27,047 nt of DNA from a virus, in the IMG/VR virus record IMGVR_UViG_3300008116_000599, positions 1 to 27,047 of that record; one strand, 5' to 3'. Shown here piece after piece: positions 9,109-14,257 of the stretch. The first letter of the stretch is position 1. Each line of letters opens with the position of its first letter. Position numbers and translations under genes: made by a program. The notes under the pieces are model-generated. The model worked only from the letters and a program-made list of their open reading frames with translations. It was not told the origin of the DNA and did not search any database.

Positions 9109-9182
9109 AGGTGGACACTCGCCACCTCGTGCCCCGCTAGTGTCTCGCACACTTGCGCCCTCTGTCTAGGGTGCGGGGCTGT
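9109..9182 (-). ncRNA. Structured intergenic RNA element, type A
   Basis: This 106-nt spacer (9082-9187) folds strongly. A 7-bp stem GCCCCGC/GCGGGGC (9179-9173 with 9137-9131) encloses two hairpins, CCCU/AGGG (9171-9168 with 9161-9158) and CGCA/UGCG (9157-9154 with 9149-9146). A further hairpin AGGTGG/CCACCT follows (9127-9122 with 9114-9109), then the Shine-Dalgarno. It shares the flanking ACAGCCCC ... GGGGCAC and the following hairpin with the spacer at 9793-9858. It lacks the hammerhead core. Class unknown. Confidence 0.5.
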
Positions 9183-9792: not shown

Positions 9793-9858
9793 AGCGAGAC
9801 TCTCTCGCCTTATGGTGCCCCCGTCGGATTGTGAACCCGTAGCCCGTAGCGCGGGGGC
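9793..9858 (-). ncRNA. Structured intergenic RNA element, type A-like
   Basis: A 7-bp stem GCCCCCG/CGGGGGC (9858-9852 with 9823-9817) encloses a 28-nt region with a small inner hairpin (CGGG/UCCG). A perfect 6-bp hairpin GCGAGA/TCTCGC (9808-9803 with 9799-9794) follows, then the repeated 11-bp element and the Shine-Dalgarno. Flanks ACAGCCCC and GGGGCAC match the spacer at 9109-9182. The 3' part ends ...GGGGGCACCA and has a TTC loop, so it faintly resembles a tRNA acceptor/T-arm, but no D or anticodon arm fits. Confidence 0.45.
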
Positions 9859-9865
9859 TGTCTTG

Positions 9866-10042
9866 CTAGGCGTGAAAGACCTCCTCGAATAGGTCTCTGA
9901 GTAGTTCCGCAATGAAGTTATCCGCCCGCCCCTGAACCTCGTCGACAATCTTTGAAAGTTGCTCGGGCGTTAGGTCTTGCCCGTAGTTCGACGAGTACGA
10001 GTCTAGAATCTCTTCCGCTGTTAGGTTGATGACTGTCTTCAT
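9866..10042 (-). CDS. 58-residue acidic hypothetical protein
   Basis: Read directly from the minus strand: ATG 10042 follows GACAGGAGAAAGCAGA. The product begins MKTVINLTAEEI and is helical and acidic throughout, with a Leu/Phe-rich amphipathic C-terminal helix (FIAELLRDLFEEVF). Its transcript segment is predicted to be released from the upstream gene by the hammerhead at 10075-10127. No family recognised. Confidence 0.75.
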   Translation of the reverse strand: MKTVINLTAEEILDSYSSNYGQDLTPEQLSKIVDEVQGRADNFIAELLRDLFEEVFHA

Positions 10043-10074
10043 TCTGCTTTCTCCTGTCGTGTTTCTGATTCGCT

Positions 10075-10127
10075 AGGCTCATCAGTTAGGGCACTTACCC
10101 TAAGACCCCCGTGAGGGGGTTTCGCCT
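10075..10127 (-). ncRNA. Type II hammerhead ribozyme, copy 1
   Basis: Reading the minus strand from 10127: AGGC (stem II 5' side), GAAA (10123-10120), stem III CCCCC/GGGGG with UCAC loop (10119-10106), then U10105 and C10104 (cleavage after C10104, GUC triplet). Stem I UUAGGG/CCCUAA follows (10103-10098 with 10091-10086), then the core CUGAUGA (10085-10079) and GCCU (10078-10075), which closes stem II with AGGC. Every invariant hammerhead core position is present, and A15.1 pairs with U16.1. It starts 3 nt after the SprT-like gene's stop, and the next Shine-Dalgarno begins about 17 nt after its 3' end. Confidence 0.9.
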
Positions 10128-10130
10128 TGG

Positions 10131-10757
10131 CTACTGAGCGCGGAATTCCACCCCGCAAGACTGGCATAGAGGGGCGCACCTTTCAAGCACCCTTGCAGAG
10201 ATTCTCATCTTCTCGCCACAGTCACAGACCGCCACCTTGAGGTTTTTATTTCTGCCCGCACTCTTCTTCCCTTGCTCAGAATCTGCCATAAGTGAGAGGG
10301 CGTTCTCAATCAAGGCGAGGGCGTCGCTCCATCGGTTAGCGCACTCGTCGCTCACCTCTGTCACGCTCCACCCGATGCCTTTCGCTTGAGTGATGGTGAG
10401 CCCTAGGGCTTCCGCTGTTGCCTTGAATTTCTGATTATGGTACCCGTCCCCGCTCACGCCTTGGATTCCATTCTGTGCGTCGATGCTGTGCGCTACCTCG
10501 TGAAGAAGTGTCCCAAGCACCGCCCGGGCTCCTCTCTCGAAGTAGTTCGCGCTTATCATCACCTCGTGAAACGATTCCTCGCCCGCTTTCCATAGTTTCG
10601 AGTGCGTGAAATGTCCCATAGTCCGCCCGGTCTTGCGGGTGACGAGGATGGTCACGCGGGGGGCTCCTGTCTTCTCTCGAATGATGGAATGCGCCCCCTC
10701 GAGGGCGGACACGATGCCGGAGAGGTGCTCTGTGCGGGTCTCTGTTGCTGTGCTCAC
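10131..10757 (-). CDS. SprT-like zinc metalloprotease with C-terminal zinc ribbon
   Basis: A 208-residue protein. The catalytic HEVAH motif is at residues 86-90, with a later histidine (Y-H-N-Q, ~107) as third zinc ligand, as in SprT/Spartan-like proteases. The C-terminus carries C-D-C-G (178-181), C194, C198 and C201, forming a zinc ribbon as in SprT. Such proteins are thought to degrade DNA-protein crosslinks or nucleic-acid-bound proteins. GTG 10757 is chosen because it overlaps the upstream TGA (GTGA); the reading frame extends further upstream but through the previous gene. A hammerhead follows its stop codon directly. Confidence 0.85.
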   Translation of the reverse strand: MSTATETRTEHLSGIVSALEGAHSIIREKTGAPRVTILVTRKTGRTMGHFTHSKLWKAGEESFHEVMISANYFERGARAVLGTLLHEVAHSIDAQNGIQGVSGDGYHNQKFKATAEALGLTITQAKGIGWSVTEVSDECANRWSDALALIENALSLMADSEQGKKSAGRNKNLKVAVCDCGEKMRISARVLERCAPLCQSCGVEFRAQ

Positions 10758-10915
10758 GCGGTCACCTGCTTCACGGTGAATGCTGTCCCTCTTTCGCCCT
10801 CGCGGTAATCCTTGAGGATTTGCAGGGCTTCCGCCTTGGTGCTTGCGGTGTAGACCGCTTCCCATCCTCCGGCGTAATAGCCTCGTACTTCCCAGAGTGT
10901 CTGTTTCTTGCTCAT
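10754..10915 (-). CDS. 53-residue conserved phage protein
   Basis: Begins MSKKQTLWEVRGYYAGGWEAVYTA, then a T-K-A-E-A-L-Q-I-L-K-D-Y-R helix and a final beta strand. This W-E-V-x-G-Y-Y-x-x-G-W-E-x-V pattern is common among tiny actinobacteriophage proteins of unknown function. ATG 10915 follows GACAGGAGAAACAGCA; translationally coupled to the SprT-like gene by GTGA. Its 5' leader is produced by hammerhead copy 2. Confidence 0.8.
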   Translation of the reverse strand: MSKKQTLWEVRGYYAGGWEAVYTASTKAEALQILKDYREGERGTAFTVKQVTA

Positions 10916-10941
10916 TGCTGTTTCTCCTGTCTCTTTGGCTT

Positions 10942-10998
10942 GGCTCTTCAGTTGGGAGGGAGCCACCCTGCCCAAGACCCCCGTGAGGGGGTTTCGCC
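10942..10998 (-). ncRNA. Type II hammerhead ribozyme, copy 2
   Basis: Minus strand from 10998: GGC (stem II), GAAA (10995-10992), stem III CCCCC/GGGGG with UCAC loop (10991-10978), then U10977 and C10976 (cleavage after C10976). Stem I UUGGG/CCCAA (10975-10971 with 10956-10952) extends by GGG/CCC (10968-10966 with 10960-10958) across a small internal loop. Then the core CUGAAGA (10951-10945) and GCC (10944-10942) closing stem II. The last G of the upstream TAG stop codon (11000-10998) is the first base of stem II. The next Shine-Dalgarno begins about 10 nt after the 3' end. Confidence 0.9.
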
Positions 10999-11453
10999 TA
11001 TCCTCTGACCATCTCGCTGTCTTTCTGTGCCTTGAGGTACTTCTCTCTCAGTGCCTCGAGTTTTGGCTTCAGAGTCTCATCGTCACGCTTCCAAAGAGTC
11101 GAAACTCTGTCCTGTAGTGCTCTGAGGGATTCTGATTCAAAGAACCCCGTCCCATTGCGTAACTCTTGGATTTTTGCATCACGGGCGTCGGACAGTTCGC
11201 GCTGTATCTTCCTCAGTTCTCGAATCTGCTCCTCGATTGCCTTATCCTCGAGAGACCATTTCTCCCAAGCATCGTCCACGTCGCGCTTGATTGCTCGCTC
11301 GTTATCCATCACCGCCATATTGATGTCATTCTGAGCCTCGCGGTATTCACGAGAGAACTTCTCCCTCTCGAGTTTTGCGACGGCTCCAAGGAAAGCGCGG
11401 GCGCGGGCGGGGTTGAGGTTCTCTTTTGCCCAAAGTTCGTCTTTGATGCTCAT
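10998..11453 (-). CDS. Charged coiled-coil hypothetical protein
   Basis: A 151-residue protein starting MSIKDELWAKENL at ATG 11453, behind GACAGGAGAAACGACA. It is almost entirely Lys/Glu/Arg-rich helix with heptad-like Leu/Ile spacing (residues ~25-95 and ~105-150), so a coiled coil is likely. No catalytic motif. It lies between hammerhead copies 2 and 3. Confidence 0.78.
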   Translation of the reverse strand: MSIKDELWAKENLNPARARAFLGAVAKLEREKFSREYREAQNDINMAVMDNERAIKRDVDDAWEKWSLEDKAIEEQIRELRKIQRELSDARDAKIQELRNGTGFFESESLRALQDRVSTLWKRDDETLKPKLEALREKYLKAQKDSEMVRG

Positions 11454-11480
11454 TGTCGTTTCTCCTGTCTTTCTTAGCCT

Positions 11481-11536
11481 GTCTCTTCAGTAGGGGGAGG
11501 CTAACCCGCCCTAGACCCCCTTGCGGGGGTTTCGAC
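11481..11536 (-). ncRNA. Type II hammerhead ribozyme, copy 3
   Basis: Minus strand from 11536: GUC (stem II), GAAA (11533-11530), stem III CCCCC/GGGGG with GCAA loop (11529-11516), then U11515 and C11514 (cleavage after C11514). Stem I UAGGG/CCCUA (11513-11509 with 11495-11491) has a weak extension. Then the core CUGAAGA (11490-11484) and GAC (11483-11481) closing stem II. Relative to copies 1 and 2, stem II changes G-C to U-A with both sides altered, a compensatory change. The G of the upstream TAG stop (11538-11536) is the first base of stem II. Confidence 0.9.
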
Positions 11537-11745
11537 TAGTTCGCCAGTTGGGCGATGACTTCCTCCATCTTGAGACCCTCCTCGAACTGGCGGGCAATCT
11601 CTCGAATCTGAGAGCGCGAGAGTTCAATCTTCAGACCGTTATCGAATCGAATCCACGCATAACTAGAAGTGAGCCCGACGAACTCAACGCCTGTCTCTTC
11701 AGTGATTGAAACGCTAACGGTGGCGGGTGTTGGTGTCTTCTTCAT
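11536..11745 (-). CDS. 69-residue hypothetical protein, first gene of the minus operon
   Basis: Starts at ATG 11745 behind GACAGGAGAAACACCAA. Thr/Pro/Val-rich N-terminal beta strands (TPATVSVSITEETG, then WIRFDNGLKIELSRSQ) are followed by an amphipathic helix ending in E-E-V-I-A-Q-L-A-N. It looks like a small sandwich-plus-helix domain. Function unknown. As the promoter-proximal gene it is likely among the earliest expressed of this operon. Confidence 0.78.
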   Translation of the reverse strand: MKKTPTPATVSVSITEETGVEFVGLTSSYAWIRFDNGLKIELSRSQIREIARQFEEGLKMEEVIAQLAN

Positions 11746-11894: not shown

Positions 11895-12218
11895 TTTCTA
11901 GGGGCTCCTCATCTACTACGGGGGGAGGGGAAGAGGACGGGGGGAGAGTCACCCGCCCCGCATTCCCCGCACTTCCTGCCCTTGCTCAGTGCTTTTGCGT
12001 TTATTGCCTAGGAATCTGCATTTATTTATATGTCGACATTTATATAAGTCCTAAGACAGAAGAGGGAAGAGAGGGCAGAGAGTCGAGGGGGGGTGACGGG
12101 CTCAGGTGGCAGAGATTGACCCCGCGCTTGATAAACTCGCGGGTGTATATATACATATACTCACCCTAAATTTTTCTGTTATATCGGGGGGTATATAGGT
12201 ATAAATCGGACATATTAT

Positions 12219-12231
12219 CGCCCAATGGGCG
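12219..12231. repeat. Inverted repeat CGCCCA-A-TGGGCG
   Basis: A 6-1-6 perfect palindrome. With flanking ATATT (12212-12216) and AATAT (12232-12236) it extends to 11 bp per arm with a 2-nt bulge. Possible operator upstream of the head genes. Confidence 0.5.
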
Positions 12232-12251
12232 AATATTAGAAATATCTTGAG

Positions 12252-12269
12252 GAAAACTGTTCGGTTTTC
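12252..12269. repeat. Inverted repeat GAAAAC-6-GTTTTC
   Basis: Perfect 6-bp arms around TGTTCG. No T-run follows directly, so an operator or RNA hairpin fits better than a terminator. Confidence 0.4.
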
Positions 12270-12293
12270 TGATTTGAACAGGTTATCTTATAT

Positions 12294-12317
12294 GTATAGA
12301 TATTTATATATCTATAC
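12294..12317. repeat. Inverted repeat with 10-bp arms
   Basis: GTATAGATAT (12294-12303) and ATATCTATAC (12308-12317) are perfect reverse complements around TTAT. It lies about 65 bp upstream of the terminase start in very AT-rich DNA; possible operator or DNA-unwinding site. Confidence 0.5.
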
Positions 12318-12330
12318 GGAGCGTCGCTCC
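12318..12330. repeat. Inverted repeat GGAGCG-T-CGCTCC
   Basis: A 6-1-6 perfect palindrome immediately adjoining the previous dyad. CGTCGC here also pairs with GCGACG at 12347-12352, so alternative hairpins are possible. Confidence 0.45.
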
Positions 12331-12372
12331 GCCTCTTGCGGGCTACGCGACGTTATAGATTATATATATATT

Positions 12373-12378
12373 TATAAT
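12373..12378 (+). promoter_or_regulatory. Candidate -10 box for the head operon
   Basis: TATAAT lies only 4 bp before ATG 12383 and 13 bp before ATG 12392. No Shine-Dalgarno precedes either start. A transcript starting 6-13 bp after this box would be leaderless or nearly so, a mode common in actinobacteria. No clear -35 box is visible at 17 bp upstream. Confidence 0.4.
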
Positions 12379-12382
12379 ATAT

Positions 12383-14257
12383 ATGGTACTAATGGGGAGA
12401 AGACCAGGCAAGGTGGACATCACCAAAGCTGAGGCTATGGAGCGGGTGCTCCACCAGCTGAGCCAAGGTTCGACCATCAAGGCAGCGATGGAGTCGGTCA
12501 ACCGCAATGAGGTGACCTTCCGCCAATGGACGATGGCTAACCCTGACTTCAAAGAGCGAGCCGACAAAGCACGCCTGGAGGGCAAAGGGGTCAAGGCAGA
12601 ACTTGCCAACCTCAAGGACATTGCCTTTGAGCAGTTTTCCGAGGAGTTCCTCGATACCAAGCTCTTCCCTCACCAGCAGAACTGGATTGACCTGATTGAG
12701 GGCAAGGAGCCCCGCTGGCTTCACCCCTCGATGGTCTACGAGCCAGGAGCTGCCAACCGAGTTCTTATCAACGTTCCCCCTGAGCACGCCAAGTCGACGG
12801 TACTGACCATCAACTACGTGACCTACCAGATTGCGACCAAACCGAATGTGAGAATCATTCTGGTTTCTAAGACGCAGGGTATGGCTCGTAAGTTCCTTTC
12901 AGCCATCAAGACCAGGCTGAGCCACCCAAGCTGGATAAAGCTCCAGACTGCCTTTGGTCCGAATGGTGGCTATAAGGCGGATTCGCCGACGTGGTCGGCA
13001 GATATGATTTACCTGGGTACAGGACGTGACTCAGGCGAAAAGGACCCAACGGTTCAAGCCTTGGGGTTCGGGTCACAGATTTATGGTGCTCGTGCTGACC
13101 TGATTATCCTTGACGATGTCGTGATGAACTCGAATGCCCACGAGTGGGAGAAGCAAATTGAATGGCTTCAAAAGGAAGTTATCACGCGTTTGGGACGACA
13201 CGGAAAACTACTCATCGTAGGAACCCGTGTCGCTCCCGTAGATTTGTATAAGCAGATACGAGAAGGTGGCAACTGGACAGGTGGTAAAAGCCCGTTCACC
13301 TATATGGCGATGCCAGCCGTTCTGGAGTATGACGAGAAGCCCGCAAACTGGAAGACGCTGTGGGCGAAGACAGACCGCCCTGAGGGCGAGAATGATGAAC
13401 CAGATGCCGAGGGACTTTACCCCAAGTGGGACGGACCAGCTCTCTTCACTCGACGAAGCGAAGTGGCTCCTTCTGTCTGGGCAATGGTTTACCAGCAAGA
13501 GGACGTCATCGAAGACTCCATCTTCGCGCCAGCAGCAGTTGCCGGATGCGTCAACGGGATGCGAAAGCGTGGACCCCTCAAGCCTGGTGCTCCAGGTCAT
13601 CCGCAATCCGTCGAGGGCTATACCGTTATAGGGCTTGACCCAGCAATGACGGGTAACACCGCAGCCGTAGCGACAACATACAACAAGGCTGACGGGATGA
13701 TTTACATACTCGATGCCGTCAATATGACGGACCCGACGCCGATGAAGATTAGGGCGTTGATTGAGGATTGGGTACAGCGGTATAGACCGCAGGAGCTACG
13801 CATTGAAATCAACGCACACCAGAAAGCATACGCACTCGACGATGACCTCCGCAACTGGCTCTCGATGTATGGATGCCAGCTCAATTCGCACTTTACTGGC
13901 AAGAACAAGTGGGACACTTCTTTTGGTGTTGCTTCTATGGCGAGCCTTTTCGGTTCCCTTCGAGATGGAAGATTTCAAGATAACAACCTGATAGAGCTAC
14001 CCAGCAACGAGGGCTCTGAGGGTCTCAAGGCTTTGGTGCAACAGCTGATTACGTGGAAGCCAGATACTAGAAACGCAACAGACTGCGTAATGGCGTTGTG
14101 GTTTGCCATCATCCGTATCCGCGAGATGATGCAACAAGGCAGTCAGAATCAACGGTGGGTCCAGAATCGCTGGGCTACCAGGTCGCAAACACAGCGCAGA
14201 ATGTCTATCAATCTTGATGAAGCCTTTGCTGAGCAATGGCAAGATACATACAGATAG
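12383..14257 (+). CDS. terL: Terminase large subunit with N-terminal HTH
   Basis: A 624-residue packaging motor. Residues ~15-65 are a helix-turn-helix resembling terminase small subunits (STIKAAMESVNRNEVTFRQW). The ATPase follows, with Walker A PPEHAKST (132-139; H-A-K in place of the usual G-K) and Walker B LIILDD (240-245). The RNase H-fold nuclease has D419 (IGLDPAMTG), E475 (RIEINAHQK) and a later aspartate in ATDCVMALW. It pumps DNA into the prohead and cuts concatemers. No separate small terminase is seen in the window, so the HTH may supply that function. ATG 12392 is an alternative start; both lack a Shine-Dalgarno. Confidence 0.93.
   Translation: MVLMGRRPGKVDITKAEAMERVLHQLSQGSTIKAAMESVNRNEVTFRQWTMANPDFKERADKARLEGKGVKAELANLKDIAFEQFSEEFLDTKLFPHQQNWIDLIEGKEPRWLHPSMVYEPGAANRVLINVPPEHAKSTVLTINYVTYQIATKPNVRIILVSKTQGMARKFLSAIKTRLSHPSWIKLQTAFGPNGGYKADSPTWSADMIYLGTGRDSGEKDPTVQALGFGSQIYGARADLIILDDVVMNSNAHEWEKQIEWLQKEVITRLGRHGKLLIVGTRVAPVDLYKQIREGGNWTGGKSPFTYMAMPAVLEYDEKPANWKTLWAKTDRPEGENDEPDAEGLYPKWDGPALFTRRSEVAPSVWAMVYQQEDVIEDSIFAPAAVAGCVNGMRKRGPLKPGAPGHPQSVEGYTVIGLDPAMTGNTAAVATTYNKADGMIYILDAVNMTDPTPMKIRALIEDWVQRYRPQELRIEINAHQKAYALDDDLRNWLSMYGCQLNSHFTGKNKWDTSFGVASMASLFGSLRDGRFQDNNLIELPSNEGSEGLKALVQQLITWKPDTRNATDCVMALWFAIIRIREMMQQGSQNQRWVQNRWATRSQTQRRMSINLDEAFAEQWQDTYR

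Follow-up and report, generated by a model that had tools for sequence, protein, structure and literature searches.

Why should the stop codon of a phage gene lie inside, or directly against, a stem of the hammerhead ribozyme that follows it? The question is raised by a 27 kb tailed-phage fragment from IMG/VR (27,047 nt, analysed over its whole length and referred to as the window), which carries three type II hammerheads (RF02276), all on the minus strand and each at a gene junction. The terminase of this phage shares 79% identity with the terminase of unannotated Caudovirales sp. ct2KA10 genomes. The hammerheads lie within a block of small minus-strand genes that extends from about position 11745 downward (Table 1); one of these genes, encoding an SprT-like protein, has an uncertain start (10757 or 10655). 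Between this block and the plus-strand terminase, the stretch 12000-12400 is AT-rich with many TATA runs and is probably a divergent promoter region.

Table 1. Genes, stop codons and structured RNA elements of the window
Feature	Positions	Strand	Remarks
Gene upstream of copy 3	11536..11745	-	69 aa; no Pfam match
TAG stop before copy 3	11536..11538	-	G 11536 is a base of the outermost stem II pair
Type II hammerhead copy 3	11473..11537	-	RF02276 42.4 bits, E 1.1e-5
Gene between copies 3 and 2	10998..11453	-	151 aa; no Pfam match above cut-off
TAG stop before copy 2	10998..11000	-	G 10998 is a base of the outermost stem II pair
Type II hammerhead copy 2	10933..10999	-	RF02276 37.9 bits
Gene directly downstream of copy 2	10754..10915	-	53 aa
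SprT-like gene, upstream of copy 1	10131..10757	-	PF10263 25.6 bits, at curated cut-off
TAG stop before copy 1	10131..10133	-	Stem II 3 nt off
Type II hammerhead copy 1	10067..10127	-	RF02276 33.3 bits, under gathering score 37
Gene downstream of copy 1	9866..10042	-	58 aa; followed by tRNA-like element
tRNA-like element	9813..9861	-	Model R1 52.2 bits; fold z -3.4; 7 nt after TAG at 9866
tRNA-like element	9127..9182	-	Model R1 73.3 bits; 8 nt after TGA at 9188

Copies 3 and 2 score above the RF02276 gathering threshold of 37 bits and copy 1 below it. The core motifs read CUGAAGA, CUGAAGA and CUGAUGA, GAAA and GUC occur in all three copies, and the predicted cut, after GUC, falls between 11514 and 11513 in copy 3, between 10976 and 10975 in copy 2 and between 10104 and 10103 in copy 1. 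Minimum-energy folds of copies 3 and 2 contain stems I, II and III, with stems I and III closed by hairpins and stem II open; the fold of copy 1 contains stems I and III only, and its stem II (GCCU/AGGC) was read from the sequence. Reading of the sequence likewise suggests a possible loop I pseudoknot of 7 bp in copy 3 (UUAGCCU with the 3' tail AGGCUAA) and of 5 bp in copy 2 (UGGCU with AGCCA), while a search of the copy 1 sequence for an evident loop I pseudoknot gave none. The minimum-energy z-scores of the hammerheads (-0.5, -0.7 and -3.0) are not discriminating. On a scale on which C11.1 of CGAAAC is 0 and the position given is that of the last stop base, the stops lie at -2 in copies 3 and 2, where stem II consists of 3 bp including the G of the stop, and at -7 in copy 1. 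The preliminary description had taken the stop G's 10998 and 11536 to be the first base of stem II and the stop of copy 1 to be 3 nt off, and these coordinates were confirmed.

The same description offered translational gating as the reason for this arrangement. A ribosome whose A site holds a stop codon shields about 10-12 nt beyond that codon; according to the proposal, the terminating ribosome hides GAAA and stem III, and cutting waits for translation of the upstream gene to slacken. The geometric half of this idea held, in that for copies 2 and 3 the ribosome would sit on GAAA and on the 5' strand of stem III, but no comparative result pointed specifically to gating as the reason for the arrangement, several weakened it, and we regard it as improbable. 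About as improbable, in our judgement, is the corollary that the hammerhead stays open during heavy upstream translation and cuts once ribosome flow falls, which would turn it into a read-out of translation. Cleavage is irreversible and therefore a passing ribosome could only delay the cut, for which a single ribosome-free interval is enough, although such a delay might still be biologically useful.

The generality of the arrangement was assessed in about 300 phage contigs, fetched by patterns blind to stop codons, in which a structural search for hammerheads and a simple codon-usage gene caller yielded 459 distinct type II hammerheads. All but two of these (457/459) lie between genes, and for 428 an upstream gene ends nearby. 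In the 428, stop and stem II are separated by a median of 1 nt (quartiles -1 and 5); 125 members of the type II sample have exactly the last base of the stop as the outermost stem II base. In the least biased subsample, a same-strand gene end is found at -9 to -2 for 82 of 93 type II hammerheads, compared with 1.1% of random positions. The upstream genes represent 334 non-homologous protein families, 265 of which have the stop at -9 to -2; with so many unrelated families, the fusion cannot be a single inherited junction. Fusion of stop codon and hammerhead is therefore real and widespread among these phages. Genome contigs of bacteria and archaea, scanned with the narrow pattern, yielded no such hammerhead.

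Because the offset mostly falls at -9 to -2, where about 76% of the type II copies have their stop, in most copies a stop-bound ribosome must lie over GAAA and stem III. Such a majority within the footprint of the terminating ribosome counts in favour of gating, but about a quarter of the type II copies, most of those in cultured Streptomyces phages included, lie outside it. As only one of the four fetching patterns leaves base -2 free, TAG enrichment was not counted on the large sample; among loci fetched by the pattern beginning at CGAAAC, TAG is the stop in 20 of 21 cases at -2 and in 15 of 25 at -3, against a background of 19%. Stem II wants a G at that base, and the stop codon is therefore chosen to fit the ribozyme.

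The packing is tight on the other side as well, with a median of 13 nt, pseudoknot tail included, from the end of stem II to the Shine-Dalgarno sequence. Hammerhead-free gaps of the same contigs have a median of 3 nt, and 42% of them are overlaps, so packing accounts for a good part of the arrangement. Genome-wide compaction as the sole cause of the offset was nevertheless rejected: the offset is nearly independent of contig-wide looseness (rho -0.15), and 77% of the copies in the loosest quartile still have the stop at -9 to -2. As looseness explains so little of the offset, general compaction of the genome is not the whole reason for it. For intrinsic-terminator hairpins of these contigs the median distance past the stop is 23 nt (quartiles 9 and 48), and for the hairpin of the hammerhead the distance is only 5-10 nt; taken together with the tight offset in loose contigs, this means that the hammerhead hugs the stop more closely than a generic hairpin does. 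Both observations can be counted in favour of gating; terminator hairpins, which must fold promptly, stand much further off, so that hammerheads evidently tolerate the ribosome. A GC-rich 3'-terminal hairpin left behind the stop is common to hammerheads and intrinsic terminators, but the hammerheads lack a U-tract. A terminator role for them was rejected, as no T-run follows stem III and the terminators are located elsewhere.

The junction after the SprT-like gene can be compared between orthologs. It retains a hammerhead in the window and in seven relatives, with the stop at -7 in the window and at -3, -4 or -8 in the relatives. The register of stop against core is thus not conserved at this orthologous junction (-3 to -8), and such drift argues against gating. 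The retention itself bears on a different possibility, namely that we are looking at remnants of hammerheads, inactive or no longer under selection, whose overlap with stop codons reflects deletion bias only. Copy 1, below the Rfam cut-off and with no evident pseudoknot, might be read in this way, and the phage is known from a contig only. Yet none of the three copies has a damaged core or cleavage site, and stem II differs between copies in paired fashion (GTC/GAC in copy 3, GGC/GCC in copy 2; AGGC/GCCT in copy 1). Moreover, loop I pairs with the tail (run of at least 5) in 51% of the copies of the family and in 19% after shuffling. We find it very hard to believe that these are remnants.

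In two other relatives (L243 and L024), a tRNA-like element, also close behind the stop, replaces the hammerhead at the SprT-like junction. Two elements of this kind are present in the window, at two further junctions of the operon, and neither was reported by Rfam or ARAGORN; Rfam also reported none in 12 further contigs. Their architecture comprises an acceptor stem, a small hairpin at the D-arm position and a T arm, with no anticodon arm; the element at 9813..9861 has the acceptor stem, the T arm and a 3' ACCA, and likewise lacks the anticodon arm. The T arm contains GGTTCAAGACC in many relatives, and the 3' end is ACCA, ACGA or ACTA. A covariance model (R1), built from seven seed sequences including both window elements, matched 20 copies in 12 loci and 55 copies in 26 further contigs. 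In alignments that were fitted to the model, paired changes far exceeded those in shuffled and slid controls (103 cells vs 26; score 0.436 vs 0.138). In the first set all 20 copies lie between genes on the coding strand, as do 52 of the 53 copies examined from the second, where the acceptor stem begins a median of 9 nt after the stop and never less than 6 nt. In the window (9126-9082 and 9812-9766, minus strand) and in L053, L061 and L016, another hairpin comes directly behind the tRNA-like element; relatives join differing hairpins to the same tRNA-like part, as if the modules on either side recombined at a point between them.

The tRNA-like fold is a predicted substrate of RNase P, which would cut at the 5' end of the acceptor stem, and a distance of at least 6 nt would accommodate the leader that the enzyme contacts. 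Processing of this type has precedents: tRNAs punctuate the polycistronic transcripts of mitochondria, and RNase P cuts a tRNA-like structure in MALAT1/mascRNA. In those systems, as predicted here, a structured intergenic element is cut and separate messages are released. The difference is that hammerheads cut themselves, RNase P being the presumed agent only for the phage tRNA-like elements. A substitute that stands at least 6 nt from the stop, with no overlap needed, counts against gating. Hammerhead and tRNA-like element thus each seem to be placed as near the stop as their own mechanism permits.

Other hammerhead classes place the stop differently. Type I hammerheads have the same core as type II in a different permutation. 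In the 56 phage type I hammerheads, the stop lies at -5 to -11, at the core UGA or in stem II. The UGA of CUGANGA itself is the stop of the upstream gene in 11 of them (e.g. L415, L528, L557, L569, L577 and L589), and in nine others the stop lies within the stem II region. Most type I stops are on or near CUGANGA, in line with gating, but they are spread over several places, the core UGA included, which is not. A further point against gating comes from the cultured Streptomyces phages Hank144 and Amethyst, in which the annotation as deposited puts the stop at -18 to -48 for 8 of 11 copies. On the minus strand of these two phages (L633 and L634, respectively), recurring TGTGCAAGTGT or GTGATACTGT motifs precede most hammerheads. 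Type III hammerheads (24) are too few for conclusions. In five of them (L420, L431, L495, L510 and L518), a short GC hairpin lies right behind the stop and shares its G-rich strand with the 5' half of the open stem III. Once the RNA has been cut, this hairpin could serve as a 3'-terminal hairpin like stem III of type II, or it could be a competitor of folding.

The type I data also bear on the idea that the stop bars ribosomes from the catalytic core and that the halted ribosome prevents mispairing, so that translation would aid cutting. There is a precedent for it, since most group I introns have an in-frame stop right after the 5' splice site that keeps ribosomes out, and translation of the upstream exon helps splicing (PMC3073962). 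The phage T4 group I introns described there resemble our case in having a phage ribozyme beside a stop codon, but in T4 ribosome and ribozyme folding do interact, whereas a dependence on translation is hypothetical here; T4 splicing restores one reading frame, whereas hammerhead cutting is predicted to separate two genes. Within the type II sample, the rarity of stops past C11.1 (2/428) agrees with exclusion. However, CGAAAC contains no stop codon, so the wall at -2 is partly forced by the sequence, and in about 20 of the 56 type I hammerheads the reading frame runs into the core or stem II. We therefore consider protection of the core by the halted ribosome unlikely, if somewhat less so than gating.

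In our opinion, the hammerheads are probably mRNA punctuation modules, packed as close behind the stop codon as their own mechanism allows. We favour punctuation because the type II hammerheads are intergenic and tightly packed on both sides across 334 unrelated families; because hammerhead-free gaps are compact, the TAG codon is selected and type I stops lie further in; and because hammerhead and tRNA-like element interchange at the SprT-like junction. It is also favoured by the demonstration that tandem phage hammerheads cleave polycistronic RNA in vitro, with one triple set doing so in E. coli (PMC3088659). Against punctuation are the low score of copy 1, which has no evident pseudoknot, and the insufficiency of compaction alone.

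The punctuation mechanism could operate as follows. The minus-strand genes presumably form one message. Each hammerhead would cut it behind GUC, which the anatomy places about 24 nt downstream of the stop codon. The upstream message would retain its full reading frame, and its 3' end would be formed by the GC-rich stem III hairpin carrying a 2',3'-cyclic phosphate. In the downstream message a 5'-OH would be followed by the stem I hairpin, immediately ahead of that message's own ribosome-binding site, and both ends may be expected to resist exonucleases. A stop in or against stem II would then be the tightest packing that spares the catalytic core from translation, with the last base of the stop doubling as the outermost base of stem II, and occlusion by the ribosome would be a tolerated side effect of this packing.

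The ribozymes themselves are ordinary, and their role has already been proposed: Perreault et al. (2011) suggested that hammerheads cut long phage transcripts into gene-length mRNAs (PMC3088659). Our hammerheads resemble theirs in being type II, in having loop I pseudoknots and in flanking single phage genes in rows. What differs is that here stop and stem II share bases, next to many unrelated genes; the text of PMC3088659 makes no mention of stop codon position. A literature search that covered few of the subscription journals turned up no paper treating stop codons in connection with hammerheads, and within the literature searched the fusion of stop codon and hammerhead, like its tRNA-like counterpart, appears to be unreported. 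If it were true that the ribosome times the cut, this would represent a new kind of translation-controlled RNA processing. Taken together, the strict stop rule and the replacement of a hammerhead by a tRNA-like element point to intergenic cutting of the transcript as the task shared by both, and thus speak to what phage hammerheads do in vivo, a question that has stood since 2011.
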